Shown here: positions 223 through 64,000 of the stretch, piece after piece
Layout: every line of letters begins with the position of its first letter
Numbering within the stretch: the first letter of the stretch is position 1
NCBI GenBank assembly: GCA_023055355.1
Contig: JALJCS010000029.1
Span: forward strand, 4,836,001 to 4,900,000
DNA from: Agelaius tricolor
Taxonomy: Eukaryota; Chordata; Aves; Passeriformes; Icteridae
Length of the DNA: 64,000 nt
Direction: 5' to 3'
Position numbers and translations under genes: made by a program
Notes under the pieces: generated by a model
Told to the model about the DNA's origin: nothing
The model's database searches: none
What the model saw: only the letters and a program-made list of their open reading frames with translations

Positions 223-280
223 ATGGCTCAGGCTGTGAGTTGGCTGGTTCTGTTCTGCAGCCTGAGGACCTTCCTCAGAG
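223..280 (+). CDS. Exon 1: start codon and signal peptide
   Basis: The exon encodes [19 protein letters not shown] plus one base (phase 1). The core WLVLFCSL is the only strongly hydrophobic stretch in the protein and sits where a signal peptide should. The ATG has G at +4 but C at -3, a moderate context. The donor is GTGAGT. The phase joins to exon 2, and the cleavage site probably lies in the SSLSA stretch that exon 2 encodes. Choice of this start is an inference. Confidence 0.72.
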
Positions 281-3200
281 GTGAGTGGGTGACTTTTGTA
301 CAAGCAAACTTCATTCTGGATTTATTTTTCTTTTTTTTTTTCTTTTAGATTATTGAGGGTTTTTTTAAATTTTCTTTTTATTTTTTTTTTGGGGGGGGTT
401 GTTTGTTTGGTATTTTTTTGTGTGTGTGAGTGGGGTTTTTTTTTTTGTTTGTTTGTTTAGTTTGGTATTTTTGGTTTTCTGTTGTCTTTGTTTTCAATTG
501 CTGCTGATGCTGTTTCCTTCTCAAAGCTAGACAGCATTAAAGATGGCTGCTTTTAGCTCATTTTGCTCATAAAGTGTGGCTGCACGATCTCTTTAGGAAT
601 TCATTCAGGAGAGAAGACAAATCAGCTTTCACCAAGGAGCTTCAATTCTCTAAATAGAGAAAAAAAACCAAACATGTAAATGTCAGTGTGCTGTGATAAG
701 AACGATCCCAAGGTGCTTTTTTCAGTATGAAACAAAGGGGGAAAATTCCTGGAACTTTGCTCCCCACCCTGCACACTCAGGTTTGGTTCCTTGTGAGGAA
801 CTTCCTCTGAAATCCTCCTGGTGAAACTCACTTTTAAAATACAAAGCAATTCATTGGGACAGAGTCTAAATGTGATCATAAGAAATACTAAATGGGAGTT
901 TTTCAAATTAGCTAGTCATTATTCAAATAATAATAATATTTTTATAATAATAATATTTTTATAATAATAATATTATAATAATTTGAGTAATATTATTTAA
1001 ATAATAATATTAGTTAGTTAGAGATTCAAATTAGATAGTTCAAATTTTTAAGTTCAGCTTTCAGGTGTCTTCCTGTTTGTGAAGAATTTATCACCTTCCT
1101 CTCATAGAATGTCAGGAGATTTCTTGAAGAGAGATTGGTAAATCTGCCTTTACTGTGTGGACTGAACAGCTGAAATGGAGAAGAAAAATCAGGATTTGGT
1201 TGAAATTATGAAAATCTGAAATTGTAAAACACACAGCACCTCCTTTATCCCTTGGCTCTTTCCATCTGAAAACTGAGGGTTTCAACTTCGTGGCAAACAA
1301 AACAAAACCTTTCCTAAAGCTGAGAAATGCATGGAAAAGGTTCCCTGCTGCCTTTTCCAGAGGTGAATGGTTTAGTTTGATAAAGTGTCTGAAACTGGGG
1401 TTTCCCCCAGGATCCTGTGCTTAGAAAATTTACTTAGAAATCTTAAAGGAGCAGATTTGAAACTTTTCTTAATTTTAGCCCTCAACACTTCAGGCTGAGT
1501 GTGATAACAGGCAGTGATATCGCATCATGGTGTAATAATGAGTGGCTGTTCAGCTTGGAATCTTGAATATTTGTTAATTGCACCTTAAATTTATTAGAAT
1601 TTTTTTCTTTTATTTTTTTTCTTTCAGGGGTCTCTTCCCTCTCAGCTGACTGCAGCCTGGACTGCCACAGCCACTGCCTCATAGACTGCAGGCAGGGCCA
1701 TTATTACACAGCTGGCAACTGCCTGGAGTGCCCAGCAGGCTTCTAGTAAGTGCCCTGAAAAAAGAGAGTTAAACACTCAGGGCACCTGACATTCTGAATA
1801 TCCTGAGGGTTAGAATGCAGGGCTGGACGTGAGGCACAAAAAAACCCCCAAAACACATAATGTCATTTTTTTTAATATGTGAGTAATCAATCTTGCAGGA
1901 AAACCACTACAATTGGGTTAAAATCCATGGTTCTGTGGCCAAAAAACCACTTTTTTTGAGCAGTGGGCAAAGGGGGATGCTCCTATATTTACACAATGGC
2001 TGAGTGGGGATGGAATTCCAAAGGAATTAAAGAATTTAATTTTATAACTTCATGTTTTGGATCCAGCTGCCCTGGAGGCCGAGCAGCTCCAAGGAAATGC
2101 CCACTGGGAACTGCCAATGAGCTGACGGCTCAGGGAGACCTCTCAGCCTGCCAGGTGAGCTGGAGAGAGCAGGCAAGGCAAGTTCTTTTTGCTTCTACAC
2201 CCATTTATTTTGAACCATCCAATCTCTGGCTTCTCCTCAGATTTTTGCAGCCTGCTTTGAAGTTTTTCAGGAAATCCCTGCAATTTTGGGCTCAGAGAAA
2301 GCAGAATTGTCCTTCCAGGTACCCAGCAAGGTGCAGATGGAAAAAGCTCCTGTGGGTCACTCAGGAGTGCACAGAGAATGATCCAAGATCCTTTCTGGCA
2401 CTGGGAATCTCTGGAGAGGCTGGTTTGCATTATTTCTGTGTCTTGGTTTGAACAGACAGGTGTCTGCTGAGGAAGGCAGGAACCTCCTTGGAAATGGAAA
2501 ATGTAAAACCCCACCCTCTGAATTATTATAATTTTGAAATTAAGGGGCTGTCACGCAAGGATATGGGAGCAGGAATAACAGTTCGTTATTAGGAAAAAAA
2601 AATTAAAAGAAAATATAAAAATAAAAATGCAGTAATACAAGACAACCCTGCCAGAGTCAGCCCATGCCCTGTCCCCTGTGTGTCAGGGGGTGGCACAGCC
2701 CCATCCCATGGGGGCTCAGCCCTCCTGCAGTGCCAGCTGTGGCTCTGCTGGAGCAGGGATCCTGCACAAGGGGGGAGTTTTCCTCTGCAGCTCCAGGGCT
2801 GCTGCAGATGGGCCTGGGCTCCCTCTGGCCATGCAGGGCAGCAGAAGCTGCTCCTCTGGCAATGCACTGGGCAAAGGCTGCTGGGCTGCCCCAAAGCTCA
2901 GATTGGATCCAGGTAGGAATGCTTGGCTCCTCCCCTGGGCGGAGCATCTCCCCATGGGATGATGGGATTGGATCAGCCCTGCAGGGACACTCCCTGGCCA
3001 TGGACAGCAGAGAATTAATAATGAATGGCCCATGAACAGAAGATAATTAATAATTAATAGCCCATTAGCAGCAGAGATCTCCTGGAGGGAGGATTGGCTG
3101 TGGTAGAGAAAACTGCCCCATGAACAGCAGAGAACTGCCCCAGCTCTGACAGATGGGCACAGAATAAACAGCCCCAGGTACATCTTGCAACTTAAGACAT

Positions 3201-6200
3201 TGCGTAAAAAATCAGCATTTCTGTGGCTGTGCTGTGTCCCTGCAGGTTTGTCCCCAGGGCTACCTCAGCCTGGAGAGCAGGGCTGGCTGCCGGCCGTGTC
3301 CCCAGGGCCACTCGTGTGACCCCGGCACGGGCACCCAGAGGAGCTGTGGGCCTGGCCAGCACTCGCCCGAGGGCCAGCTGGGCTGTGGGGAGTGCCCCGA
3401 GGGACTGGTCTGCCCCGATGGACAGAGCACACAGGTACAGCAGGACAAACTGCCCCTCCTGCAGGACAAACTGCCCCTCCTGCAGGACTAACAGGGCACG
3501 CAGGCCTGCCTCTGCACTCGCGGGAAGGCCTTGGCAGCAAAGAGAGTTCCCTGGTTTAACAGTAGGATGTGGGTCTGGATTCATCAAAGGAAAGCATTCA
3601 GAGCACTTGGTGAGAGAAATCAGAGAGTCACAGAAGAGCCTGAGCTGGAATAGACCTTTCAGGATCATCAGTTTAACCCTTGGTCCTGCACAGACACCCC
3701 AAATCCCACCCTGAGCACCCCTGGGAGCACTGTCCAACCCCTCCTGCAGCTCTGGGACTGACAGGGATCACCAATTCAACCCCTTGCCCTGCACTGACAC
3801 CCAAAATCCCACCCTGAGCATCCCTGGAGCAGTGTCCAAGGGCTCCTGGAGCTCTGGGACCCATCAGGATCATCAAATCCAGCTCCTGGCCCTTGCAGAC
3901 ACCCCAAATCCCACCCTGGGCATCCCTTAGAGCGCTGTCCAACCCCTCCTGCAGCTCTGGGACTGACAGGGATCACCAATTCAACCCCTTGCCCTGCACT
4001 GACACCCAAAATCCCACCCTGAGCATTCCTGGAGCGGTGTCCAACCCCTCCTGCAGCTCTGGGACCCATCAGGATCATCAAATCCAGCTCCTGGCCCTCA
4101 TAGACACCCCAAATCCCACCCTGAGCATCCCTGGAGTGGTGTCCAACCCCTCCCGTATCTCTGGCAGCCTCAGGGCAGTGCCCAGCTCCCTCTGGAAGAA
4201 CCTTTTCCTGACACAAATATCCCTCTATTAAAAGAAATAAATACTTTTCATCTAAATTCTGGCACTGTTAGAGCTCAGTTTTTCTGCCACCATGAAAACC
4301 CTCACATGAGCACTCAGACTTGGAGATTGAGGTCCCATTTTTGCATCTAGAAATTGTCATCAGAGAACAGAGTCGAAGCAGTGCAGGGCAGAGAAGAAAG
4401 AATGCAGTAATGGGTTTTTTCCTGACTCAGGCCTCTCCAGGACACTGCTTTTAGGTCCAAATTAGACCTTTTTCTGCTGTGAATTTGTGTTTTTTTCCCC
4501 TCAGCACTGCTCGGCAGGTCAGCAGCCCAACCCCACTCGCACCCTCTGTGTCCCCTGCACTCCTGCTTCCCTCCCAGCTGAGGACACCAGGCCCTGCCAG
4601 CCCTGCCCAGCAGGTAAATCCATCTCACAGGGTTCTTCTGTGCTCATTAAACACAGAATTTCAGGAGGCTGGAGTGGCATTTTGCTCTGGTAACACTTCT
4701 CTGACTTGGTGGAACAGAGAGAGGCTCCTTGTGTTATGGTAAAACTGGAGGTTAAAATTACATAATAATTGAAAATAATAGAAAAATAATAATTATTAAT
4801 AATAATTAAAATTTTAAAATAATTCTGTCTATTGAATATTTTTATATTCAATAAAATAAAATTTTATTTTATTGAATAATAAAATAATATTTTGTGTGAA
4901 AATATTCTCACAAAATATTATTTTATTACTCGATACAAAAATATTGTATTGAATAATAAAATAAAATAATATTTTGTGAGACAAAGCAGCTGCTGCTGCA
5001 AAGAGCTCATGAAGGGCAGAAATGAAAGTGAGAGAACACCAAGGATCACAGCTGGGTTTGGGAGTTTATGGGAGAGGTGCAGCTGAGGCAGCCCCGGGAT
5101 GGAAACCAGAGCGTGCAAATGTTGCTGAGCAACGAGGGAAGCCTTTGGGTTCTCTTCTCACACAGAAAGCAGAGCTCTCACTCTCTGATTCTTAACTGAT
5201 CATCTGTAAAATTGATTTAGGTACAGTCAGAGCTCCCTCCACTCCAGGCCTTGATTCAGTGGCTATCACAAGTGCCATTTACTGTGAGAGCTGTAGGGAT
5301 TAGGAACCAAAGAGGGGAACACTGATTTTCTTACCTAATTTCCCTTTCTGCGTGACACTCTCAAAGAAACCCAAACAAGCCATGTTTAGGAAATTGCTGT
5401 GTGTTGTTGAGGGTGTCACTGAGATGCAGAATGAGGCAGCAGGGGAATAGGCTGGGAAGGTTTTGATACAAAATCATTGCCTTTTGAAATCCCGACTCTT
5501 CAGTGAGAGAGAGGGAGAAACCTTCCAGCACTGAATGGCCACGGGCCATAGTGTGTTATGGTAATTCACATTTTCCAAACAGAGACATAATTCTCTCTCC
5601 CAGGATTTTTCCTGGGGAAGGCAGTGAGAAAGCTCAGAGAAGGGAATGGAAACAATTCTTGACTCTACTTGCTGCTCCCGTTGTTTGGCACGTGTGGAAT
5701 GTGTTATGGAGATTGTTTTCCAAAAGGGATTTGTTAATTGGACTCTGGTGATGGTTGTTTGGATTGATGGACTAATTAGGTCAAAGCTGTGTTGTGGCTG
5801 TCTGGTAAGGGTCATGGGTTTTTCTTTAGTGTAGTTAATATAGAGTATAGTGTAATATATAATGTAATGTAATATAATATAATGTAAAATGATATAATAT
5901 AATATAATATAATATAATATAATATAATATAATATAATATAATATAATATAATATAATATAATATAATATAGCAATTGTTCAGCCTTCTGAATCATGGAG
6001 TCATTGCACTTTGTTCCCTGGCTGGGGATTGTCCTCCATTGATACCACAGTTTCCCTATGAAAAGAGAATTAAACTCCTGGCACGTCCCAGACAATGAGC
6101 ATAAGCCCAGAGAGGATTTGCTAGTCCAAGATGAGCTTGTTCTTTGTGCTTGTTTCCTGGGAATTATCCCTCCAAGCCCTCCACATTAACCCTGTCCTGT

Positions 6201-9200
6201 CCTTCAATACAGCCCCTGGCGAGGGCAGCTGGGGCTAAAGGGAGCATCACCATCCCCAACCATTCCCTGCACAGCCCCTCAGCTTCAATCCCATTTCCCA
6301 GCCCACCTGAACCCTCGGGGACAAGGCCTGGTGGGCAGTGGGTGCTGCTGGCAGCTTGTGGAAGGATCAGCAGTTGGCAATCCAAGGCACTTCCATGGTT
6401 TCCCCTCTCCTCCAAGCCCTGGCTTGATTCCATCAGCAGCTCCAGGTGCCTCCTGCAGAGAAACCAAGCTCAGTAACTCAATTCTGATGTAACTGGAACC
6501 CTCCCATTAAATAATGAATTTCTGTGCTCCTCCCCTGCTGTCCAGGAGAAGGGTGAATGGGGGAGCTAAAGAGATCAGGATCTCAGTAGTTCAGCTATAA
6601 AGCACAGTGGAGGGAATAGAAGCAGGAATTCTGTTATTTCCAGTGCCTGGGGTTCAGTACAAACACAGACTACCCCATGCTGGAATTCGGTGCTCCTAAA
6701 TACAAACCCCCTGGAGCAATCCCAAAGCCACGAGGTGATAAGGAGTTGGGATTCCAGCAGCAGCCTGAGATTCCCATGTTCTTTTCTTGACTGATTTTAA
6801 TGACACATAATCTGTGTATTTAGTGTTGCCTGCATGAGAGAAGTGCACAGCAATGGATTTCAGCAGAGCTCAGTGGCTCAGTTAATCCTGCTTTCTTTTT
6901 CTTTCTACTCTTCAAATATCCATCCTGAGTTTAGGAAACCATTTGATGATCAGTTTCTGCAAAACCTTAATTGGGAACTGCAATTAATTCTAGGGGGATG
7001 TCAACTTTTTGTCTCAGTGTACAACTGGCAGCAGGATTTTAAGTGAAAGATCATGTATGGAACTGGAGAGAATTTGGGAAAATATTAGGAGCACCTCAGC
7101 TGATCTTTAATCTCCATGATCTTGGAGACAGCAGAAGAATTGGAGTAGAAAGAGAGAACAATTAACTCTAACCATGCTAATAAAACTAATTTAGCCAGAA
7201 ATGTCATTGTCTGTTTTGAATTTAAAAACATTGTTTTGTGTTAGATGTTTGGATTTCCTCTGCCAACTCAGGAAGAAACATTTTTAAGCAGGTGGGGGCA
7301 GAGCAGCCCAGAATGTTGGGATTTTTTTTGTTTAAATTCTCTCCAGGTCACTTCTGTCCTGATGGCCTCGAGGTCCCTCCATGCCCAGCTGGGAGCTTCA
7401 AGCCCAAGGAGGGGGTTCCCAATGCCAGCAGCAGCTCCTCGTGCTTGCCAGGTCTGTGTCCTCAAATTTTAATTTTGGGTCTGCTGAGCTCACCCAGCAG
7501 GTCAGTTGTGATGAAAAACTCAGAGACTTTCTGGTTTTAAACTTATTTAACATCAGCTTTGCATAGGAGGCACTTTTTAACACTCTTAGAGAACTTTTCC
7601 AGCCCAGCTTCCTCACTCAAACTCCTTTCCAAGCTCTCTCCTGAGTGGGATCAGAGGAGGGACACAATGAAAGCTGAGCATCCCCCTTTACTTTGGGAAA
7701 GGTTTTTAAATTTGTCTTTGAATACTCACAACAGTCCCCATCCCATTCTTGCATCCAGGGCAAATGAGGTTACAGATCAGGGAAAAAAATAATATTGTAA
7801 CAGCCAAAAAAGCACAGGAATTTCTGCCTTCAGAAGCTGCTGAGGCCCTGCCCTTAAATTTAAAATTGCCAAGCAGATGAAGGAGTCTGTGATGTTTGTG
7901 ATGTTCTAAGTGCTGCAAGGCAGCAGCACAAGGCTTCCCCAGATTTCCAGCTGTGCTGCTTCCTTCTAAATATTTTTGTTTGGCTTTGGGTTTCTAAGCC
8001 AGTAGAACTTTGTTTTGTACACACAGCACTGAGTCACCCTAATGACTGGGAAACGTGGGGAAAGCAATGAGATTTTAGTTTAGTTCTGGTGAAATTAAGT
8101 TTTCAAAGGCAGAATAATGGAGGTTTGTTGGTCTTTTCTGGTATCAAATCTTTGCTTAGGCATGGAAAGGGAGACGTGGATTTATAACCACGCGTGGCTG
8201 AGGCTCTCTCTGCCCAGGTTTGAGCATTTCAGAGCATCTCAGTGTCTCTCACAAAGGTATAAAAATCCCTTTCTGTCCTTAAAAATGCTGTACAAATAGG
8301 AAAATAGAGGGAGATTCAGGGAATGAGCACAGTCCACCAAAGTAAACCTTGGGCCAAGCCCAGAATGTTTTATCCAGCGTCACAAATCCCAGCCAGGAGC
8401 ACAAACCTGGAGTTCAGGTGCTCGGTCTCCCTTTGCATCTCTTGAGTTATTCCCCTCATGTGCTAAGAAAATAATTATCTCCCTCAGATCAAGGCATATC
8501 TTTGTCTATCTGAGCATTTCTTTTCCAGCAAATGACTCAGCTGCTGAACTGTCCTGACACACACCCACACCAGGGCCTGACTGAGCTTTGACAAACTCAG
8601 GTTTGGAGCAGTGTCCACCCGGGCAGTTCTCCATCCTCAGGCAGCATTTCCCCTTCCCTGGAACTGCTGTTTGCTTTAGAAAGGCCTGGCTCAGGGGGAG
8701 AGCAGCCACTCCTGGGCTGAATTTGTGTTTCCTTTATTTGGGAAGGTTTTGTAATGAAATGCACTTTCTAAACACGCTAACAGCAGCCAGGGATCGTTGT
8801 TTTATTACGTATTGATCTTGCTTTAGGTTGCAACACGAACGTCTTTTGTTTAACACGTGGGATTTTAGGGATGATCACAGCTCAGGCTGCTTGTCTTCCC
8901 AGCAGCTTTGCACTGAGTTTATCTCCAGCCTGCAAAACCCCTGAATTCAGACTGGAATCAGCCTGGTTTTCCTGGAAAGCCCAGGCTCTCCCCCAGCTGA
9001 GCCCCAGGCACGGTGATTGTTATCTGTACCTGCACCAGAGGCTGTGCTCAGGCTGATGGCTCTGTTCTTATCAGAGCAGCACAGAGCACAGGGCTTTAGT
9101 GCTTCCAGGACTAAATTCAGCTAATCCAACACCACCACCTCCTGGCTTTGCAGGAATTTTATTCCCAGCGTGGATGAACCTCCGTCAAATTTCCCTGCTG

Positions 9201-12200
9201 CGGGTGGAAGCAGAGGTGAAATATTTCGACCTCAGCAGGTCATAATCCCTTTCTGACCTCAAATACCTCTCTCCTTAGGAGCTGGCTGGTGTTTGAAGTG
9301 CCCTGCTGGTTATTTCTGCCCTGCTGGAGCCAGTTTCCCCGTGCCCTGCCAGCCAGGGACACACAGCCCTCTGCCAGGACAGGACGAGGCTGCAGACTGC
9401 AGAGCCTGCCCTGCAGGGAGGGCCTGCACCCAGCCTGGCCTGGCCCAGCCTGACTCTGACTGCTCAGAAGGGTAAGCCTGGGTTATTTCCTGCCCACTTC
9501 ATGTCTGTGCAGGCATTTCACCTCCTCAGCTTTTGCTTTCAGCAGCTTTTTCTGCTTTTTCCTGCTTTCCTTTCCCTCGGCTCACACAGCACGGAGGTGT
9601 TGCTGTCTCCTTGCACCAGGAATGTTTTGGAAGCCTTCAGAGCTGTTTTCCCTTGGGTGGTGGCCTCCAAAACCTCCCTCAGACCCTGCTGGTGGGTCTG
9701 CTCATAAAGGGAATCGTTTTTCCTCCTGTTTTCATCTCTGAGCTCCTCCTGATGTATCTGCTCCCAAAGGGAATCACGTTGTCCTCCTGTTTTCCTCCTG
9801 AACCCCTCCTGGTGTGTCTGCTCCCAAATGGAATCGTTTTTTCCCCCTGTTTTCCTCCCTGAACCCCTCCTGGTGTGTCTGCTCCCAAATAGAATCGTTT
9901 TTTCCCCCTGTTTTCCTCCCTGAGCTCCTCCTGGTGTGTCTGCTCCCAAATGGAATCGTTTTTTCCCCGTTTTCCTCCCTGAGCTCCTCCTGGTGGGTCT
10001 GCTCACAAAGGGAATCGTTTTTTCCTCCTGTTTTCCTCTCTGAACTCCTCCTGCTGGGTAGTTCTGTGCTGCTGCTGCCCCCAAGGTTTGTTCTTTGCTG
10101 CCAGCAAATTAGTTTTTAGATTATTAGTTCCCAAACCCCCCAGGACAGCCCAGCCCCAGGAAGCCACAGCAGCTTCACCCCTCAGAAACCTGGGGGAGAT
10201 TCCTGCCCGTTCCCAGCTGCTGGGATGGAGTGAAGAGAATTGGAATCAGCTGGAAGAGCCCCTGAGAGTGGAATGGTTGGCCCAGATTTCAGAAGGGCAC
10301 CCTGAAATCACCCCTCAGGTGAAGGTGGCTTCATGCCCTGTGCCAAGGTTTCTGCAGTTTCAGGGTGACACAGACTGTCCTGGTGGAAGGTTCCACAAAT
10401 TAGGTAAAAACAGCCAAGAACGAAGCCAGGCCACACACCTCATGGCTGAATAACCCACTTTTGGTGTGAAACGCCCCACACAACCTCTCCACTCACAGAG
10501 TTCCATTTTCATTGTGCATGATTGCTGCTCAGTCGTGTTGCTGTCAGCCATGTCAGATTTCCCCAGCTGCTCCACCCCAATATTTTTGTAGGGCACAGAG
10601 TTTGCCCTCCCCTGGCATCCACACCCCTGTGCCAGGTGTCACCCTGTTCTAAAGTTCTTCTAAGCCTTCTGACGTTTACATTGTTGTAATGGAGTTTCTC
10701 ACCCACTTTTCATGTAAATAATGATTGTTTTGCATTCCTTTCTGGAGGAGGAGACAATTGATGGAGTGCTGGCTTGACCAGTGTGGTTGGGGAGGTGACA
10801 ATTTCATCCTCCAATCCATGGTCACTTTTAGAATTCTATAAATATTGAAGTCCTGAAATAAACTACCCCCTTTTTTGCCTTAGCCATCTCAGAGAGTGAG
10901 CATCATTCATTTCATGTGATATCACGACACCATGTGTGTCACTGTCACATTTTCTGGAAAAATCCCTTCCCCAGGATTTCTCTCCTGGGGAGCTGAGAAA
11001 CCTCAGAGAAAAATGAAAACAATAATTATCTGATTCGCTTCTCCTGTGTTTTGCTGCTTTGGAATGTGGTTTGGAGATTGTTTATCCAACATGTGAATCA
11101 TTTTGACTTAATGACCAATCACAGTCAGGCTGTGTCGGGACTCTGGAAGGAGTCAGGAGTTTTCATTATTATCTTTTTAGCCTTCTGTAAGTGTCCTTTT
11201 TGTATTCTTCAGTATGTTTTAGTTTAGCATAATATAATATAATATAATTAATATAACTAATATAATATAATGTAATATAATGTAATGTAATGTAATGTAA
11301 CGTTATGTAATGTAACGTAATATAATGTAATGTAACGTTATGTAATGTAACGTAATATAATGTAATATAATGTAATGTAATGTTATGTAATATAATGTAA
11401 CGTAATGTAATATGTAATATAATATAATATAATATATCAAATTAGCCTTCTAAGAACATGGAGTCAGATTCATCATTCCTCCCCTCGTCAGGGGACCCTG
11501 ATGATCCCACCCAGGTGCTGTGCTGTGTTTCAGGTACGTGTGCCCCACGGGCTCTGCCAGCCCCCATGCCCCCAGCAATGCCTGTCCTCCAGGAACTGTT
11601 GGCCACCGCGTGGACCTCTTTGACAAGTCCCAGTGCGAGCCCTGCCCTGCAGGGTTTGTCTGTGCCAGAGGTATGTGGCTGTGAGAAAAATGATGCTCAC
11701 TTCTGGCACCGTCATATTTTCTGGAAAAGTCCCTTTGCCCAGGATTTCTCTGCTGGGAAGATGAGAAATCTCAGGGTAAAAGGAAAACAATAATGATCTG
11801 ATTTGCTTCTCCTGTGTCTTGCTGCTTTGGAATGTGTTTGGAGCAGCAACAGGAAATTGTTTCATTGGTTTCATGTGAATTGTTTTGACTCAATGGCCAA
11901 TCACAGCCAAGCTGTGTTGGGACTCTAAAAGGAGTCACGAGATTTCATTATTATCTTTTTAGCCTTCTGCAAGTATCCTTTCTGTATTCTTTAGTACAGT
12001 TTAGTATGGTATTCTTTAGTATAATATAGTATCAAAAATAATAAATTAGCCATCTGAGAACATGGAGTCACATTCATCATTCCTCCCATCATCTGGGAAC
12101 CCCACAAATACGACACACCTCCAAGAATTCAAGGGATTTATTAAACCTTTATTAAAGCTTTATCATTAAATTATCTAATCATAATACTTATATTTATACT

Positions 12201-51200: not shown

Positions 51201-54200
51201 AAACTTGGGGTCAATGACTTCATCAGCTGCAGCTGGAATTGGCAGATTCACCCCCAAAATGCAAATGGACCAAGCTTATAAAAGTGTGAAACCTGTGACC
51301 CATTGTTCATTTTTGGGTGGGTTTTATCTGCCCTAAATGTACCTGAAGGCCCTTCAATAAATAGAACTGTTTTTATTCCCTTAATTTTGCCTGGCCTCTG
51401 TTTTTAGGTAGCCCAGGAAGGCGTCACCCTCTCCATGAAATGCTCTCCCTTCTGTGTCCTGCCAGGGTCACTTCTGTGGGTCAGGCTCAGCCCTGCCCAG
51501 GCCGTGCCCAGCCGGGCAGTACCAGCCAGCCCCGGGCTCTGCCTCCTGCATCCCGTGCCAGAGAGGATTCTACTGCCAGGAGAAGGTGGCAGGGGACCCC
51601 AGGCGCTGCCCACCTCATTCCTACTGTCCCCCAGGTACTCTGGCACCTGCCGGGGGCTCAGGTGTCCTGTGCCTGCCTGTGACCCCAGGATGTGCAATCC
51701 CGAGTGTCTCCCCCAGGCCAGGGGGTGAGGAGGTGGCAATGAGCCAGTGTGGCACAGAGGCCACCTGAGAGTCACCTGTTAGATTTTGAGAGCCTTGTCA
51801 CACCTCAACACTCTTAATGAAGTTTATTTTTGCATCTGTGCTCTCCTTTTAGGGACACGAGTTCCTCTCACCTGTCCTGAGGGCACCTTCACTCCTGGAA
51901 ACGTGACTGGCCTCTGGAATGAGAAGGAATGCCTGCCTTGCCTCCCTGGCCACTACTGCAGGTTAGGATTCAGTTCACCCTGGCATTTTTCCCCTTCCTC
52001 TGGAGCTGTTGGACATCCTTGTTTCGTGCTGGGAAAGTTCTTCCCGGCTCCTCTCCTGCATTTCTCTCACTCAAAGAAAAGAAATACAAGCTTAGCCACA
52101 GAGCTGGGTACAGAGGCACTGGATCTGGGAATCCTGGGAGGCAGAAGCAATCTGGCATCGTTGTTGTGCTACAAAGAAGCACCTGCAAGAGGTGTGGGTG
52201 GCATTTGTTCTCTCCATTTTGGCTGTTTTCAAATTTATGAAATCACGGGAGTAATGCAGAAAGTTCAGCCCAGTGGAAAGTCACCCACAACTCCATCTGC
52301 AGCAGTGTGCCTTGTTCATGGAATTTGAACTGGTTCACTTTAATCATCTGTTGGAACCCCAGTGAGAATACTGAGAATTTTGTGCTCACAAACACTAACC
52401 CTCAAGAGAACACTACATTTAACCTGAAACCATAGAAAGAGCTTCCAAAACTGAATAATAGAACTAAAATGATGAGTTTATCATTTGAATAGAAGTGTGT
52501 AATAATAGTAGAAAACTTAGAATTTAAAGTTTTAGAATATAGTAATATATGTTAAAAAAATAGAAGTTTCAAAGCAGAAGCTAGTCCATCTACATGGGGT
52601 TTTTTTAAGTGGAAAATGTGCCTATTTTCTCTCTCTTATCAGAAGTTATTTTTCATTGCAAACCTCGCAGAATTCCCAGTCAATGCTCTGCTTTTGCACC
52701 GAACCACCAGCAGCAGCTCGGAACACACAAACTCTTGTTTTCCTCTCTGCTGCAGGCACGGCAAGCTGGAAGGGAAATGTGCTGCAGGATATTTCTGCCT
52801 GGCTGGGAGCTCTCAGGCTGCTCCCCAAGGCCTCCCCTTCTCCTGGCGCTTCCTGGCCGGGTGCCGCTGGGGCCAGGTGTGTGCAGGGCTGTGTCCTGCA
52901 GGTAGGTGAGGGTCTTGCTTGGAACAGACTGCTAAGGAAGGCAGGAGCCCCCCCTGAAATGGAAAATGCAAATCCCCTCCCTCTGAATTATTATAATTTT
53001 GAAATTAGGGAGCTCTCGGGCAAAGATATGGGGGTAGGAATAACAGTTCTTTATTAGGGAAGAAAATCATCATAAAAAACCCAAAATAAACAGGAGTGTG
53101 CAGGGCTGTGTCCTGCAGGTAGGTGAGGGTTTGAAAAGATGTCTGCAAAGGAAGGCAGGAGCCTCCCCTGAAATGGAAAATGTAAATACCCTCCCTCTGC
53201 ATTGTTATAATTTTGAAAATTAAAGGCTCTCAGGCAAAGATATGGGAGCAGGAATAACAGTTCTTTACTAGGGAAACTAAAAACTACAACTGTAATAGTG
53301 CAAACAAACAAACAAACCAACCCTGCCAGGGTCAGCCCATGCCCTGTCCCCTGTGTGTCAGGGGGTGGCACAGCCCCATCCCATGGGGGCTCAGCCCTCC
53401 TGCAGTGCCAGCTGTGGCTCTGCTGGAGCAGGGATCCTGCACAAGGGGGGAGTTTTCCTCTGCAGCTCCAGGGCTGCTGCAGATGGGCCTGGGCTCCCTC
53501 TGGCCATGCAGGGCAGCAGAAAGCCAAAAGGTCACCTGGAATTTGCTGCCAGTCCAGAAGGGTTTGAAGGCTCCTGGTTTCCCAACACCTGTAAAAATTC
53601 ATTTCACAGCAACAGCAGAGTCTGGCTCGGTTGTTTTTGCCACCGGAGGGTTTGCATGTTTTACTTTTCTCTCTTTTTCATCCATTTTTAGGTCACTACT
53701 GCCTGGAGGGCTCTGAGGTGCCCACCCCTTGTCCTGCCAACACTCTGAGGGCTCTCCCCGGGGCTGGCAGGAGGGAGGATTGCCTGCCCTGCCCTCCAGG
53801 CCGCTGGTGCAAAGCAGGTTTGGGTGATGGCAGCTGCTTTTTGGGACACTTGTGTGTATCCCTGATTTCCCAGCCCCATTTTCCTCCATTCTGATGCCTC
53901 AGGTTTAGCTTTTCTATTTTTCAGGTTCTGTGCTGCTTTAGTGTGTGGGTCTGGGCTCACATCAGGGGATGCTGAGCTCTGGGCACAGAGCAGGGACATA
54001 AAACAATTCCTGCTCCAGCTGGGCACCAAGGACAAATGATCCAAATCTCAGCCCAGGAGCACAAACCCCGTGGGCTGGAGAGAGAAAAACAAGGATGGGA
54101 CTGCAGGGGCTAAAGCTGGAATGGGACAATGAACTGCAAGATGCAAATGGAGCAGAACTGATCCAAGGGAGAGACCCCGGGAGCACTCGTGCATTTTGGG

Positions 54201-57200
54201 ACCATTTGGGTTCATCTTGGGACCATTTTGGTTCATCTTGGGTGCATTTTGTGACCATTTTGGTTCACCTTGGGTGCAGCCCAGGTTGGGCTCTTGTGCT
54301 GCCCCAGTTGCATCCACGGAGGCCCTTGAATAAATCCCTGCTTTATTCTTTAGCTCTGTCCAGCCTCTGCTCTAGGTCAACCATCACAAGCTGAAGGCTT
54401 CAAATCCAGCCCCTTTTCCCCCACTTTTCCCAGTTTTTCACCTATCCCAGACCCTTTTTATTCCATTTTTCCCAATCTCATCCCATTTTCCCCTATTCCA
54501 GCCCCATTTTCCCAAATTTTCCCCAATTTTGACTCATTTTTCCCCCATCCCATCCCATCCCATCCCATCCCATCCCCCTTTCCCCCCATTTTACCCAATC
54601 CTGCCCCGTTTTCCATCCATTTCCCCCCATCCCAGAGCATGGCTGGGATGTCAGATGTGGAATTGTGAGAGAAAAGAGGCAGGGACCTGTTAACCCAGTG
54701 ACATCCCTGGGTGCCACCTGGCAGAGGAGGGGCTGGGAGGACACAGAGCAGAGTTCCAATGGCACTGGGGACACTCCTTAAATCCTCTTTTTTCTGTTTT
54801 TCAGGGGATTCCGAGGCCCACCCGTGCCCTTTGGGCCACTACTGCTTCGGGAGCAATGGCAGTGCCCAGAGCAGTGTCCTGGCCCCTCAGGAGTGCCCTC
54901 CCCACACCTTCCGTGGGCACCTGGGGGCACGGAGCCTGGCAGAGTGCCAGCCCTGCCCTCCTGGCTACCACTGTCCCCTGCCAGGTGAGTGTGGGGCAAA
55001 GCCAGCCCTTTTCCCTCCTCTGGGTTAATAAATTCCCTCCCTTTCCCGCCTCTGGATTACAAAATTCCATCCCTTTCCCACTCCTCTGTGACAAAATTGC
55101 TTCCCTTTCCTACCCCTGGGTGCCAAAATCCCCTCCTTTTCCCTCCTCTGGGTGCCAAAATCCCCTCCTTTTCCCTCCTCTGGGTGACAAAATCCCCTCC
55201 ATTTCCCCACCTCTGGGTGACAAAATTCCCCAGGACAAGCTAGGGAAAGGGAGGGACAATTCCTGCTCACAGCCACCTAAGAGCCTTTCTCCAAATTTCC
55301 CCTTGGCCACCCAGCTCCTTTTCCTTTTCCTTTCCCCTTTCCTCCTTCTCCTTTTTTTTCCTTCTCCTTTTTTTTCCTTTTCCTTTCCTTTTTCCTTTTC
55401 CTTTTCCTTACCCTTCTTCTCCTTTTTTTTCCTTTTCCTTTCCCTTTTCCTTTTCCTTTCCCTCCTTCTCCTTTTTTTTCCTTTTCCTTTCCTTTTTCCT
55501 TTTCCTTTCCCTTTCCCTTCTTCTCCTTTTTTTTCTTTTTCCTTTCCTTTTTCCTTTTCCTTTTGTTCCTTTCCCTTTCCTCACTCCCTTCTCTTTCCTC
55601 ACAGGCCTGACCAGCTTTGAGGACTATCCCTGTCCCCCTGGGTACTGGTGCCCTGGCAAAGGGGACACTTTCCTCTGCCCAGCTGGCACTTCCAGGGCCC
55701 AGCCTGGTGCCAAATCCTTGGAAGAGTGTGATCCCTGCTCTCCTGGGTATCACTGCCCGGATCCAGCCCAGACAGGGCTCCCCAACACCCAGGGAATCCC
55801 TTGCAAACCTGGCTATGAGTGCCCAGCAGGTAACACCACCTTTGTTTGCCTTATTTCCTGATTTCCTGAGCCTAAATGAGGGGTCAGCAGGGAATCTGTG
55901 GTATTTGCTGGGTCTGCAGGATGCATGAGGAATTCAGAATCTGATTCCATGTTCTTGGAAGGCTAATTTATTATCTTATGATATATTATATTATATTACA
56001 TTACATTACATTATATTATGATATATTATGATATATCACATATTATATTATATTATATTATATTATATTATATTATATTACATTATATTACATCATATTA
56101 CATCATATTACATCATATCATATTATATCATGATATATTATATCATATCATATTCTATTATGCTAAACTAAACCTATACTAAAGAATAGAGAAAAGAAGG
56201 CTTAACAAGAATGATCATGAAAACTCATGACTGCTGCCAGAGTCCTGACACAGCTGGCCTGTGATTGGTCATTAAGTCAAAACAATTCACATGAAACCAA
56301 TCAAACAAGCAGCTGTTGGATAAACAATTTCCAGACCACATTCCAAAGCAGCAAAACACAGGGGAGAAAAATGAGATAATATTGGTTTTCCTTTTTCTCT
56401 GAGGCATCTCATCTTCCCAGGGGAAGAAATCCTGGCGAAGGGGATTTTTCCAGAAAATGTGACAGTGACAGGAATTAGAGGGACTCTTATTCCATTCTCT
56501 CAGGCCATGATCCCTCCCAGCCCTCCCTGCTTTTGTTTAGCTGAGGTTGCCAAGGAAATGGTCTGGGCTTGGAAAAGTAGGAGATATTTTCATGCAGGGC
56601 TGGGCACTGAGGTGCCAGCATACCATGCTAAATAATAAACTGGTTCCCAAGAGTTCTGTGCCCTTTTGGGAGCTGTAGAAAGCACAGAGAGTTTATGGAA
56701 AAGCCTCCTTGTCACAGGCATCTTTTATGAAAAATCCTTTCCTTAGGATTTTTCTTCCTGAGAAGCTGAGAGGCCTCAGGAACAAAATGCAAACAATGGT
56801 TATCTGCTGCTGTGGAATGCAACAGGTGCATTTGGGATTGGGCTCATGTGGTTGTTTCTAATTAATGGCCAATCACAGCCCAGCTGGCTCGGACTCTCTG
56901 TCCGAGCCACAAACCTTTGTTATCATTCTTTCTTTTTCTATTCTTAGCCAGACTTCTGATGAAATCCTTTCTTCTATTCTTTTAGTATAGTTTTAATGTA
57001 ATATATATCATAAAATAATAAATCAGCCTTCTGAAACATGGAGTCAGATCCTTGTCTCTTCCCTCATCCCCAGACCCCTGTGAGCACAGTCACGCCTCCT
57101 TGCCTCCCAAACACAGATTTTCCTGTTTGGGGGATGTCACACCAATGCCATTCCCTGTTTCTCCCCCAGGATCAATAACTCCCAAGCCCTGCAGGCCTGG

Positions 57201-60200
57201 CTCTTACTGTGCTGCTGTGACAGGAGAGCCCCCCCTGTGTCCTGCTGGCTTCCACTGCCCTGAGGGATCCTGGACTTACAGCAGCCCCGAGCAGCTGTGA
57301 GTACCTGGGGCTTGGGGCTGCCAGCCTCCAACCCCAATACTGGGAATTGAGCCTGGGACCCAACCTAAACCACATTCTTTGTGCATGCTGCAAAAGCAAA
57401 GGGATTTTGTGGAACTGGGGACTGGGACTGGGATTTTGGAGACTGGGAGAGGGATTTTTAGTTTCTGCTCAGCTTGGAATTCTTGGGACTTCTGCTGGTC
57501 AGGGTGACCCCGAGATATGTACAAGTCTCTTTTCCCAGCCCAGCAGCTGGAGAAGATTCCTTGGCTGTAGTTTTCAAGGTTGTTATTATTTATTATCTAT
57601 AACGTCCAGCAGGTCAGTCAGAGGCACACTGTCCACCCTCAGGGTGATGTTGTCCTTTATACTAAAAGCTACGTGTACATTATTTACCATAACTTCCCAA
57701 TACCTATCACCTATGTTAGACAGTGAGCTTCTACCTTAAACCAATCCAAAAGTGCCAACATCACCCAGAAAATGGAGGCCAGGAAGAAGAAAGAAGAAGA
57801 ACAGGGCATGCCCAAGTTCCTCCATCTTGGGACCCCGAGCCCCCATTCTAAAACCCCAAAAATTTACTTTCCACCCAGTGACAAACTAGCTATTATTCTG
57901 TTTAAACTCTCTTGACTTGTAATTCTTCATATAAAGGTGGTAATTTGCTCCATGGGTGAAAATCAAAGGCACAGGTATCCTGGGCTCTGTGCCAAGGTCT
58001 CTGAGCCCCCAGGCAGGGGCTGGAGCCATCCAGGGCACCCAGAGGGATGTCCTGGCTTATGGAATCAGATAAGAACCACTTTTAGTTTTTCCTTGGTTTT
58101 TCACTGATCACTGAATCCTGGAATCATTTTCAGAGATTTTTTCCCCCTTTCCCTGCTCTGTTTTGGCTGCCAGGTGTGTGTTCCCATTCTACTGCCCCCC
58201 AGGCAGTGCCCAGCCCGTGCCCTGTGCAGGAGGGCACATGGCCCTCAGCCTGCCTGGCCTGAGGGGCTCAGCTGAGAGATTCTGCAGAGCTTGTGCTGCA
58301 GGGACCTTCCGCAGCGAGCCCCTGATCTCAGAGCCCTGCCAGCCCTGCCCAGCTGGCTTCACCTGCCCACCAGGTAAATTCAGCTGCCACGGGGGAGTGG
58401 GGCAAGAAATAGCAGCTTAAATTGGGAGCAGGGAGTTTTGAGTTCTGTGTGGGCAAAGCTCTCAATGCTCTGCAGTTATAAAAGCCTGGTGTGGGCTGTC
58501 ACGTGGGTTTGCCACTGGATTTAGCCAGTGGAAGAGCTGGGGGAAGGAAAAACTGAGAATTATATTTAAATATGAATTAGACTGAAAAAAGCTGCTCTGC
58601 ACATGTGTGTGTTTCTATAGACTCGTGTCTGTGTATAGAGAGACGTGTGTAGATGGATCACTGGGACAAGCAGGTGCTCTCTGCCTCTCTCCCAGCTCTT
58701 TCTGGGGTCCCTCATGCCACCCTTTTCTCCAGGCAGTGACAGCTACCACCAGCAGCCTTGTCCCCGTGGCCACTACTGCCCTGCCCTGTCCCCTGCCCCG
58801 CTGCCCTGTCCCCCGGGCACCCACGGGAGCAGCAGCTTTGCCAAGCACCCAGGGGACTGCCAGGCCTGTCCTGCTGGCACCTTCAACCACCTCCCTGCCC
58901 AGGCTGCCTGCTTCCCCTGTGGCAGCTCTTCTTCCTCTCAGCCAGGTGAGCTTTTGTGTGGGAATGGGATTTTCCCCTCTGGTGTTCCCTGATGTTCCAC
59001 AAGCCCTGGGGTCCTCCTGCAGCTGGGGGTGCTGCCCATGCCCAGCTGCTCTTCCCCTGTGCCACCCAGGAGGAGGATTCCAATTCCAACCTTACCCAAG
59101 GGGATTGGATCTCCTTAAAGGAAAGGAGAGCTGAGCAGCTCTACTAATTCTTGCTCTATCATTGCTTTGAAAGCAGTGGAGTTTCACCAAGATCACTTTA
59201 GCCAGGATTTGGGGGGATTGTGTTAAATCTAGGGGTGCTTTTGAGCCAAAATGGGGCACTGAGGGCATGATAAAGTGGGATAAGGCTGGGTGGAAACTGG
59301 AAAAGTAAGGAATGCTTATTCCTCATTTAGTGTGTGTGCAGCACTGCCCAGTATTTCAAATCAGGTGGATTTGAGGCTGTTGGGGCACAAGAGAGGGGCT
59401 TGGCAGCCCTCGCTAGCTGGGTCCTTACCCCATCCAGGCCTTTATTCTACAAATCAGTGGAGGGATTGTCAAAACCCTGCTGCCAACGAGCAGCTGGGCC
59501 TGTCTGCATCTCTGGCTGAATGGCTGCTGCAGGAGATGCTCTCATGCTGTGTTGGTGCAGGCTGGCCCCAGTGTTGGGGAAGATGAAACAGGAAAGCCTT
59601 ATCAATATGATTGTCTGGCAAAAGACTTGGAGAATATGGAAACTATGAGTGAGATTGAAATGAAAGCAAGCTCTGAGATCCCTCAGTTACTGAACAACTG
59701 GAAAACAATGGTGTGGCTGCTGAAGGTGATCCCCTTTTGATGGAACAACACCCTCTGCTTGCAGACAGGCCCAAGGGGCAGAGCAGACCCTACAGCTTGG
59801 CAGAAGGGGCCCAAAGAGGAGTTTTTAGGGTTTAAAATGTAACACAGGATGGTAATGTAATGATTCTTATAGGCTGTATGTAAATGCTATAGGATTTGTA
59901 TCTTGTACTAGATTGGTTAGTGAGAATTAGAATATTCAACACAGAAGAAGATTTATGGTATTGTAATGGGAACCTCGCTCTCTTACCCCTTTTATTCTCT
60001 CCCCCTCTCATCCTCTCTCCCCCTCTCTTCTCTCAGTCCTGCTCTGAGCTGTGCCTGGCAGCTCCCAGCAGGGCCCTGCACCCAGGCCCTTTGCAATAAA
60101 TGCAATAAACCCCAAATTCCAGCCCTGGCTGCAGAGATCTCTCATCCCTGTCCATCCTGACCATCCTACCCCCTGTCACTCCTACACCCCAGCTGCCTGT

Positions 60201-63200
60201 CCTGTGGCTCAGCTCTGCCTTGGAAGAGGGGCACAGGCTCCAGCAGCATCACTGAAATGAGCAGTGAGATTTGATAAAGAGTTCTGGGCACAGGAGCTGC
60301 TCCTTCCCAGCCAGCACGCTTGTTCCAGGCTGCATTCCCTCTCTGAATCCCACCTCCTCTCCCAGGTGCCATCAGCTGTACCTGCCATGGGATGAACAGG
60401 GCTTTCCAGCAGTCAGATGCCTCCTGCATCTGCCAGGCAGGTTATGTTTATTATGATGAGAGAGGCAAGAAAGACCCTGACAGCAACAGCGACCAGGATT
60501 GCCAACCTCAGGTAAAATCGGGCTCCAAACCAAAATTGTTGTGTGATGTGCAGGAGAGGGGAGTGTTCAGGCCTTAAGCTAAGCCAAGCAAATATTTCAG
60601 ATGCTTTATTGGCCTTTTGTTGTGGGAGGTTTTCTTTTCCAGGATCTTGTGAGGTTAAATTTAAATTCCCAAGGGATGGAAGCAAAGGATCCTTCCATGC
60701 CAGGGCAGTGGGAGCAGCACAGTACATGGATGACAGATCCAGGAATTTAAACCTCCTTTAATATGAAGTTCTTCTTTAGAGCTGCCATGGGCAGGGAGAC
60801 ACTAAACCCAGTCCTTGTTTGTAACTTGCATGATGCCACTTTTTTCTCCTTTTTGAATGAACTTCTGTATTCCAAACCCCACTCCTGGCATGGTTTCCAT
60901 GGCAATCCAGAGTGTCAAAATTATACCCTGGTTCTTTCAAATATTTTCTTACAGCTGAAGAAAACTAGAACCTCATGAGGGGGTGGGAGGTGAAATTGTT
61001 GTGTGCTGTTGGATTCCAAAATGCAGGGAATTCTCAGAACTTTGGCCTGCAAGCCAAAGCTTAGAATTAAACACAGGGTTTGATCTGGAACCTTGGAAAA
61101 GGCTTCCAAACTTAGGTGGTAGAAGTGAGAATGTGGATTTATAGTTTAAAGCAGAGACACGTTGAGTTAAGAGGAAGAAAATTCAGAGTTTTGGAGTTTG
61201 GGATATAGAAAAAATAAAAGTAGATACAAGGGTAAACAAGGAGTTTAGAATGCAGCACTGTGGGTTTGTGTGCCATAACATGATTGGCTAAGAAAGCTTA
61301 CACTGTAGTATGGGTCCATAAGACAAAATATTTAAGGATTGGGTCAAAAACATAAATATCCTTGTTGGCAGTGTTTTATTGGTTAATAAATCCTTAAAAG
61401 GTCTTATAACTAAAGGTCTTGTGACCTTCTGAACCATGCAGTGAAGATGTCCTTCCTGCCTATGGAGAAGATAAGCAAAATAAATCACATCATCTAAAAA
61501 CTCAGAGCTCCCAGCTCTAACTCATTCAAAATTCCTTCAAAAATCCCCACAGTGTGTTTTCTTCATGCTTTCCTGGTTGGACTGCCTTGATGTGGAATGC
61601 TGGATTGCCTCGATGTGGAATGCTGGATTGCCTTGATGTGGAATGTTGCATTGCCTTGATGTGGAGTGTTGGGTTGTCCTTATGTGGAATGCTGGATTGC
61701 TTTTACACAGAATGTTGGGTTGCCTTTGTGTGGAATGTTGGGCTGCCTTGATGTGGAATGTTGGATTGTCTTTGTGTGGAATGCTGGATTGCCTTTATGT
61801 GGAATGTTGGGTTGCCCTTACCTGGAATGTTGGACTGCCTTTACATGGAAACTTGGATTGCCTTTGTGTGGAATGTTGGGTTGCCTTTACGTGGAATGTT
61901 GGATTGCCTTTACATTAAATGTTGGGTTGCCTTTACATGGAAAGTTGGGTTGCCTCTATGTGGAATGTTGGGTTGCCTTTACGTGGAATGTCTGAAGTGC
62001 AGCAGTGGGGACAAGGAGAGCTTTAGGGATGCTGCAGCTCAGCTGAGGCCTGGAAGCTGCAGCCCTGGGGCCTGTCTGGGTGTGTTTTCTGCAGGTGGAC
62101 GAGCTGTGTGCCCCCGGGCAGGTCCGGCTGGCGTCCACGCGCCGCTGCGCCGCCCCTGAGCACCACGACTGCGCCCCTGCCTGCGGGCCGGCCGGAGGGG
62201 AGCTCCACGCAGAGCTGGGCATGTGAGTCACCACAGAACCGCCACAGAACCGCCACAGAACCACCACAGAACCGCCACAGAACCACCATAGAACCACCAT
62301 AGAACCGCCACACAGCCACCACCCACAGAACCGCCACAGAACCACCACACAGCCACCACAGAACCGCCACACAATCACCACCACAGAACCACCACAGAAC
62401 CGCCACACAGCCACCACAGAACCACCACACAGCCACCATAGAACCGCCACAGAACCACCATAGAACCACCACAGAACCACCATAGAACCACCACACAACT
62501 GCCATACAACCACCACAGAACCGCCACAGAACCACCACACAATCACCACAGAACCACCACAGAACCACCAGGAAGGGACCTTCACCATCACAGAGTCCAA
62601 CCCAGCACTGTGTCTTGGTTTAGGGCAAATCTGGGAGGAAACGTTTACAGGGTTTTTGTTTTTCTAGAAAGCAAGGAAAAGAAGGAAAAGGCGAGGGAAT
62701 CTCTGTGCTTCAGTTACAGTTTGACATGGGAGGAATTTAGGGAAGTGATGCAAAAGCTTTTTGTGTAACTGACAGTCTGTTGAACCACTGAGAAGCTGGA
62801 CACACCTCAGTCACGGGGGGAAGAGAAGTGTTCTGAAGGGTTTGTTTCCATTCTTACTACTTTTTTTCCTTTTAGTTACCATTAATAAAATTTTCTTTAT
62901 ATCCTTTTAAAGTTTTGAGCCTGTTTTGCCTTTCTCCTCATCCTATCTTCCTATCTCACAGCAGGAAGTGAGTGGATGGGTGATTGGCCACCACTGAAAC
63001 CCACCCAACTCATCAGCAGATTGGTTGGGAAAATCTTAAAATGGGGAAAATCTCAAATTGGTGATCCAAAATCACTACACAAAATTGGTGTTTCTGCCTG
63101 GTTTCAAGCTGAAACCACCACACTCAGCTAGCTAAAAACTAAGAGCAAAGGAGAGCTCTGTCCTGCTGTCTGTCCATCTGCAGACAGCACAGTCCAGGAG

Positions 63201-64000: not shown

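Follow-up and report, generated by a model that had tools for sequence, protein, structure and literature searches.

What does a locus encode when nearly all of its open frames spell one cysteine-rich module? The stretch in question comprises 64,000 nucleotides of the Agelaius tricolor genome (contig JALJCS010000029.1, which measures 8.8 Mb in a genome of 1.16 Gb, positions 4,836,001 to 4,900,000; hereafter the window), which an earlier note, made from the letters alone, had interpreted as one giant, possibly uncharacterised gene for a secreted protein of GCC2/GCC3-like repeats. Our analysis indicates a genuine gene of giant size whose database names suit it poorly. It belongs to an ancient eukaryotic family for which no characterised member was found, and judging from its predicted sequence, the assignment of the product as a membrane-anchored, single-pass type I protein is well supported.

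Gene Structure

The gene model was obtained with a purpose-written splice-aware dynamic-programming finder trained on the window and by spliced alignment of the crow protein P0001, the two being merged by hand; 100 kb downstream of the window were included, and positions there are given in window coordinates. Inside the window the merged model has 57 complete exons and one that is cut by the window end, with 8,877 nt of coding sequence (2,959 stop-free codons) beginning at an ATG at 223, a start consistent with the N-termini of crow P0001, owl P0003 and chicken P0008. The earlier count of 58 exons and 2,959 codons without a stop, made by eye, was reproduced by an independent model, as compared on totals and start position. 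In the same genome the whole gene consists of 70 exons encoding 3,523 residues and ends with a TGA at 72,553, 8.5 kb beyond the window end, and this merged model supports the claim of one giant gene.

All internal exon borders are AG/GT, and median scores are 3.3 for donors (-3.3 for all GTs) and 3.8 for acceptors (-3.2 for all AGs), although both values are partly circular because the finder used these scores. Introns of the 70-exon model are in phase 1 in 39 cases, in phase 0 in 17 and in phase 2 in 13. The trained model scored 837 with 58 exons on the forward strand, whereas the controls, for which the codon model was likewise the one trained on the forward strand, stayed below one tenth of this value (72.5 for the reverse strand as the best of 12 sampled ATGs, and 53.4 for block-shuffled sequence as the best of 3 x 4 starts). 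CxxG..C motifs occur 92 times on the forward and 18 times on the reverse strand. Together, the motif counts and score controls rule out the reverse strand or chance as the source of the open frames. Exon 51 is not part of the crow isoform; its best match lies at the position judged to be expected in seven of nine relatives tested, the two without it there being the crow and Podarcis.

Protein Architecture and Membrane Topology

The protein starts with a hydrophobic segment, followed by approximately 2,790 residues of GCC2/GCC3-type repeats, a cysteine-rich and cupredoxin-like region, a transmembrane helix and a coiled-coil tail. The helix occupies residues 3,198–3,217 (ILFILGSLVLVLTTLAIVF; mean hydropathy 2.8) and is encoded, with the remainder of the membrane-proximal region and the cytoplasmic tail, by exons 59–70. 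The tail includes a segment with the sequence LEDFSVRTLYDKLEDQ and a strongly conserved motif, LEDF[SN]VRTLYDKLEDQ, whose columns L-E-F-L-D-K-L-E-D-Q are invariant in alignments of 38 and 28 relatives. It terminates with LGSSGLF before the TGA, at the same place where the Agelaius and crow proteins stop. Because the exons downstream of the window encode a strong single transmembrane helix and a cytoplasmic tail, a type I membrane protein is predicted, and the secreted protein proposed earlier is rejected.

The domain next to the membrane is predicted to have a cupredoxin-like fold, which was recovered in predicted structural models. Type 1 copper proteins possess a Cys-His-Met ligand loop. None of the aligned rows shown contains this ligand set in the expected loop, in which they differ from plastocyanin and pseudoazurin, and we therefore reject an ordinary type 1 copper protein. 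A profile of the domain detected 184 of the 189 retrieved relatives, a partly circular result, as the relatives had been retrieved with the same region and some of them were used to build the profile. Fold matches for the tail of model m2c7ee4efa597 were mostly to long helices and were taken as generic.

The Repeat Region

That nearly all coding sequence of the window consists of GCC2/GCC3-like modules agrees with the Pfam check: PF07699 reached 24.7 bits in an early model, above the curated cut-off of 23.1, with five stretches in the first 779 residues, and 46.5 and 93.7 bits in the crow and chicken orthologs, respectively. The scan of this gene's own model covered 779 residues at its start and 605 at its end; in crow P0001 and chicken P0008, PF07699 was the only family found at E <= 0.1, and EGF, CUB and kinase domains were not found in either. 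ELAPOR1, SCUBE and the Eph and TNF receptors all share this repeat type, although in these proteins the module is only a minor part. Profile and fold searches with the repeats matched MST1 mastigonemes, ELAPOR1, EphB6 and 4-1BB. The best profile match in the PDB was Chlamydomonas MST1 (8tx1, 8wa2; E 1.7e-13), while a query with a single chicken sequence gave nothing. In Foldseek, the caecilian model P0132 matched ELAPOR1 best. A Foldseek match to thyroglobulin was taken as probably due to a shared repeat type, and profile matches to huntingtin and SNF5 were taken as low-complexity artefacts. GCC2_GCC3 is listed as a promiscuous domain (PMC4224354).

The MST1 rod spans 26 nm per 678 residues (PMC11015965). 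Scaled from this value, the repeats of the Agelaius protein would make up a disulfide-stapled rod with a length of about 107 nm. The likeness to MST1 would lie in the long cysteine-rich rod of growth factor receptor type. However, MST1 also has Ig domains and a polyproline helix that is glycosylated, and it polymerises on the outer side of the membrane (PMC11015965), features not found here, where a transmembrane helix is present instead. Pfam gave no match to an Ig-like domain in the two scanned parts of this protein or in the crow and chicken orthologs, and a polyproline helix was not found, the longest proline run being two residues and proline making up at most 25% of any 60 residues.

Relatives and Naming

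A first protein search returned 101 proteins, among them the crow protein with 86% identity over 607 queried residues, from crow, owl, pigeon, macaw, chicken, ostrich, alligator, turtle, lizards, frogs, mammals, ray-finned fishes and sharks, and further out from the mollusc Elysia, with distant matches in Albugo and Vitrella. A second search yielded 78 shorter models, many of them mammalian (including lemurs, macaque and tamarin), and a third, with 53 listed, added annelid, crinoid, sea urchin, sea star and lancelet. The search of vertebrate proteins suggested in the earlier note uncovered orthologs from sharks to mammals, and the lancelet, echinoderm, annelid and mollusc relatives are orthologs as well. 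Over its last 788 residues the protein shares 98.2% identity with P0134 of the blackbird Agelaius phoeniceus. A whole-genome search with P0134 listed 20 matches, all at 4.857–4.908 Mb of this contig and thus within this gene, and among these matches there was no second copy of the unique C-terminal part elsewhere in the genome.

Orthologs include crow P0001 ("SCO-spondin-like isoform X5") and chicken P0008 ("zonadhesin-like"), both full-length models, as well as deer mouse P0050 ("Predicted gene 9195") and fish si:ch211-286b4.4 (P0060, P0078), of which P0050 and P0060 are partial. They share the repeats, membrane-proximal region, helix and tail with the Agelaius protein; the crow ortholog has 477 residues more, and chicken, ostrich and most non-mammal relatives carry an additional C-terminal domain that is absent here. 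Membership in this ortholog group is indicated by the full-length, exon-by-exon match to crow and by a shared neighbour gene. The annotation-fused sheep protein P0090 runs on into its neighbour gene, a P-type ATPase, and a matching P-type cation ATPase lies at 96789–114313 on the minus strand, tail to tail with the gene described here (17 of 18 pieces approximately 60–94% identical, one 27.5%); this shared neighbour speaks for orthology. For the Tudor domains located after the ATPase in P0090, no match was found in the downstream stretch searched.

By profile comparison, the membrane-proximal half is recognisable even in Albugo and Vitrella. An hhalign comparison of animal and protist-side profiles aligned 416 columns across cap, cupredoxin domain, membrane helix and juxtamembrane region with a probability of 100% (E 2.2e-41), as opposed to at most 1.1% in 10 column-shuffled controls. 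The sets consisted of 11 segments (animals and two without organism name) and three protist-side segments (Albugo, Vitrella and P0100). P0144, P0187, P0188 and P0189 were left out, as the motif did not locate the segment, but the cupredoxin-like profile does detect P0187–P0189.

Relatives bear the automatic names uncharacterized, SCO-spondin-like, zonadhesin-like, MEGF6, notch, trichohyalin-like, THYG and Predicted gene 9195. SCO-spondin is composed of VWD, TSP1, TIL and LDLa domains, and SCUBE of EGF repeats and a CUB domain. Both identities are rejected, as the crow ortholog contains, at E <= 0.1, PF07699 and none of the SCO-spondin domains, and at the same threshold Pfam found no SCUBE-type domains in P0001 and P0008. 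Zonadhesin, with MAM, mucin and VWD/TIL domains (PMC1325057), is rejected because of the PF07699-only chicken ortholog. The description as uncharacterised holds insofar as no characterised member and, among the relatives retrieved by the protein searches, no full-length match to a well-described protein was found. The gene is, however, not unannotated, since automatic models exist in many vertebrates under "uncharacterized" or unsuitable names.

In the open-licence literature searched we found no description of the family apart from one table entry for Gm9195, and no expression data under any name searched, ortholog and LOC names included. The table lists chromatin elements whose accessibility is greater in inner than in outer hair cells but which are not hair-cell-enriched (PMC12528612). 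Genuine zonadhesin is the subject of PMC9275260, and the zonadhesin-like genes of PMC1325057 are likewise genuine, carrying MAM and VWD domains. Two goose "SCO-spondin-like" genes with neighbouring numbers appear in a list of hypothalamic changes, with non-significant P values of 0.12 and 0.21 (PMC11450866). This pair stands beside the sperm-tail gene ODF1 (PMC11450866) and might conceivably be pieces of the gene described here.

Possible Function and Lineage-Specific Changes

The function that we favour, at about an even chance, is that of a giant type I membrane protein serving as an extended spacer or tether at the cell surface, perhaps that of cilia or other protrusions. The repeats would be a disulfide-stapled rod that works as a mastigoneme- or receptor-like spacer, binding or sensing something distant from the membrane; the cupredoxin-like domain may serve as a structural cap, and the conserved tail motif might dock a cytoskeletal or membrane partner. 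The ciliary location is a guess. It is compatible with the lack of arthropod, nematode, fungal and land-plant names among the matches of the three protein searches (some matches being nameless), as would be a role in motile cells. In algal cilia, mastigonemes form complexes with PKD2 (PMC10846610). Going further, the cilia or sensory protrusions of animals, vertebrates included, might bear a membrane rod of mastigoneme type that predates the split of animals from oomycetes and alveolates; we regard this as unlikely, but if so, the rod would have gone unnoticed because its giant gene appears in split form, without a name or under a wrong one in the genomes at hand.

Alternatively, the protein might be a receptor or adhesion molecule at cell–cell contacts, with a signalling tail and with repeats that keep a ligand-binding tip away from the membrane. 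The resemblance of the repeats to the cysteine-rich regions of Eph and TNF receptors, the type I topology and the strongly conserved tail motif would all fit, but Pfam finds no N-terminal domain that could be such a tip, and the relatives in the protists Albugo and Vitrella speak against this role, which we consider possible but doubtful. Still less probable is an extracellular-matrix or mucus protein cleaved off the membrane like mucins and growth-factor precursors: cleavage could take place at basic stretches, for example at KGRRAQR ahead of the cupredoxin-like domain, and the automatic names SCO-spondin-like and THYG point in this direction, but few parts are as well conserved as the membrane helix and the tail, which would be needless in a merely secreted protein.

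Parts of the gene may have been lost in some lineages. Crow residues 1971–2447 (P0001) are missing in frame at 41483–42680, between two phase-1 introns, reflecting either a real deletion or an assembly collapse. The additional C-terminal domain of relatives may be zincin-like and was found in none of 20 Neoaves models, several of them partial, nor in this gene. WLM/SprT zincins have an HExxH active site. No intact HExxH was seen in the relatives' domain, which reads HCLAH, HTLAH or HALAH in P0092, P0094, P0096 and P0180 and HIMTH in shark, whereas every other row lacks one His or more. Both simian primate models that were read are short fragments (P0138, 449 residues; P0158, 438 residues), and the gene may be decaying in simian primates. 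A gene decaying in the songbird lineage, its function fading, would fit the absent C-terminal domain, the missing block and the short primate models, but is very improbable: the frame remains open through all 3,523 codons, splice sites follow the consensus, identity reaches 98% with Agelaius (788 residues) and 86% with crow (607 residues), and the losses are in frame.

Exon Coordinates and Neighbouring Sequences

Table 1. Exons of the gene in window coordinates ("both", ab initio finder and spliced alignment of crow P0001).
Feature	Position	Strand	Basis
Exon 1, ATG and hydrophobic signal peptide	223..280	+	both; score controls
Exon 2	1628..1745	+	both
Exon 3	2067..2154	+	both
Exon 4, repeats	3246..3434	+	both
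Exon 5	4505..4613	+	both
Exon 6	7347..7451	+	both
Exon 7	9279..9471	+	both
Exon 8	11534..11670	+	both
Exon 9	12458..12682	+	both
Exon 10	14864..15005	+	both
Exon 11	16288..16411	+	both
Exon 12	17221..17409	+	both
Exon 13	18403..18534	+	both
Exon 14	19538..19720	+	both
Exon 15	20352..20546	+	both
Exon 16	20987..21135	+	both
Exon 17	21476..21644	+	crow protein; not in ab initio run
Exon 18	22616..22750	+	crow protein, merged model
Exon 19	23241..23384	+	both
Exon 20	23476..23677	+	both
Exon 21	23998..24138	+	both
Exon 22	24895..25077	+	both
Exon 23	25996..26067	+	crow protein
Exon 24	26419..26545	+	both
Exon 25	26760..26899	+	both
Exon 26	27900..28103	+	both
Exon 27	28618..28767	+	both
Exon 28	29270..29449	+	both
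Exon 29	30781..30897	+	both
Exon 30	31632..31781	+	both
Exon 31	33572..33787	+	both
Exon 32	34808..34912	+	both
Exon 33, preceding intron 81 bp	34994..35138	+	both
Exon 34	35938..36152	+	both
Exon 35	36236..36335	+	both
Exon 36	37903..38069	+	both
Exon 37	38881..39114	+	both
Exon 38	39926..40023	+	both
Exon 39, followed in crow by ~477 extra residues	41305..41482	+	borders: finder, merged model
Exon 40, reading frame of exon 39 kept over missing block	42681..42830	+	finder, merged model
Exon 41	42918..43021	+	both
Exon 42	43607..43824	+	both
Exon 43	45812..46032	+	both
Exon 44	47471..47617	+	crow protein
Exon 45	48829..48993	+	both
Exon 46	50117..50268	+	both
Exon 47	51466..51634	+	both
Exon 48	51853..51961	+	both
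Exon 49	52756..52901	+	both
Exon 50	53692..53817	+	both
Exon 51, not in crow isoform	54805..54984	+	finder; match in 7/9 relatives tested
Exon 52	55605..55829	+	both
Exon 53	57170..57296	+	both
Exon 54	58174..58373	+	both
Exon 55, final repeats	58733..58945	+	both
Exon 56	60366..60511	+	both
Exon 57, conserved membrane-proximal region begins	62095..62222	+	both, profile comparison
Exon 58, cut by window end, runs to 64090	63958..64000	+	both, downstream sequence
Exons 59-70, beyond window	64320..72553	+	downstream sequence, merged model

Two tandem arrays were observed within the gene: a 183-bp unit repeated 3.7 times at 43787–44466, by which the end of exon 42 is copied within the following intron, and an intronic 23-bp minisatellite of approximately 45 copies at 49029–50047. 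Downstream, an exon-like match at 73978–74061 to the tail of Willisornis and alligator models carrying PF15874 (Il2rg) is probably the next gene, fused by annotation. Exons at 150256–154228 match a sodium channel beta subunit that is fused to this gene in the fish models P0069, P0073 and P0185, and the V-set domain in P0073 belongs to that subunit. A second locus with PF07699 repeats on the same contig (6972670–6972996) presumably represents a different gene.

Significance of the Family

Automatic names such as SCO-spondin-like, zonadhesin-like, MEGF6 and notch can hide a whole family. A protein of approximately 3,500–5,000 residues with a strongly conserved cytoplasmic motif, retained in vertebrates from sharks to mammals as well as in other animals and still recognisable in some protists, probably has a basic role, although neither a name nor a known function was found for it. 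If it is a rod on cilia, it would link the ciliary surfaces of animals to the mastigonemes of algae.
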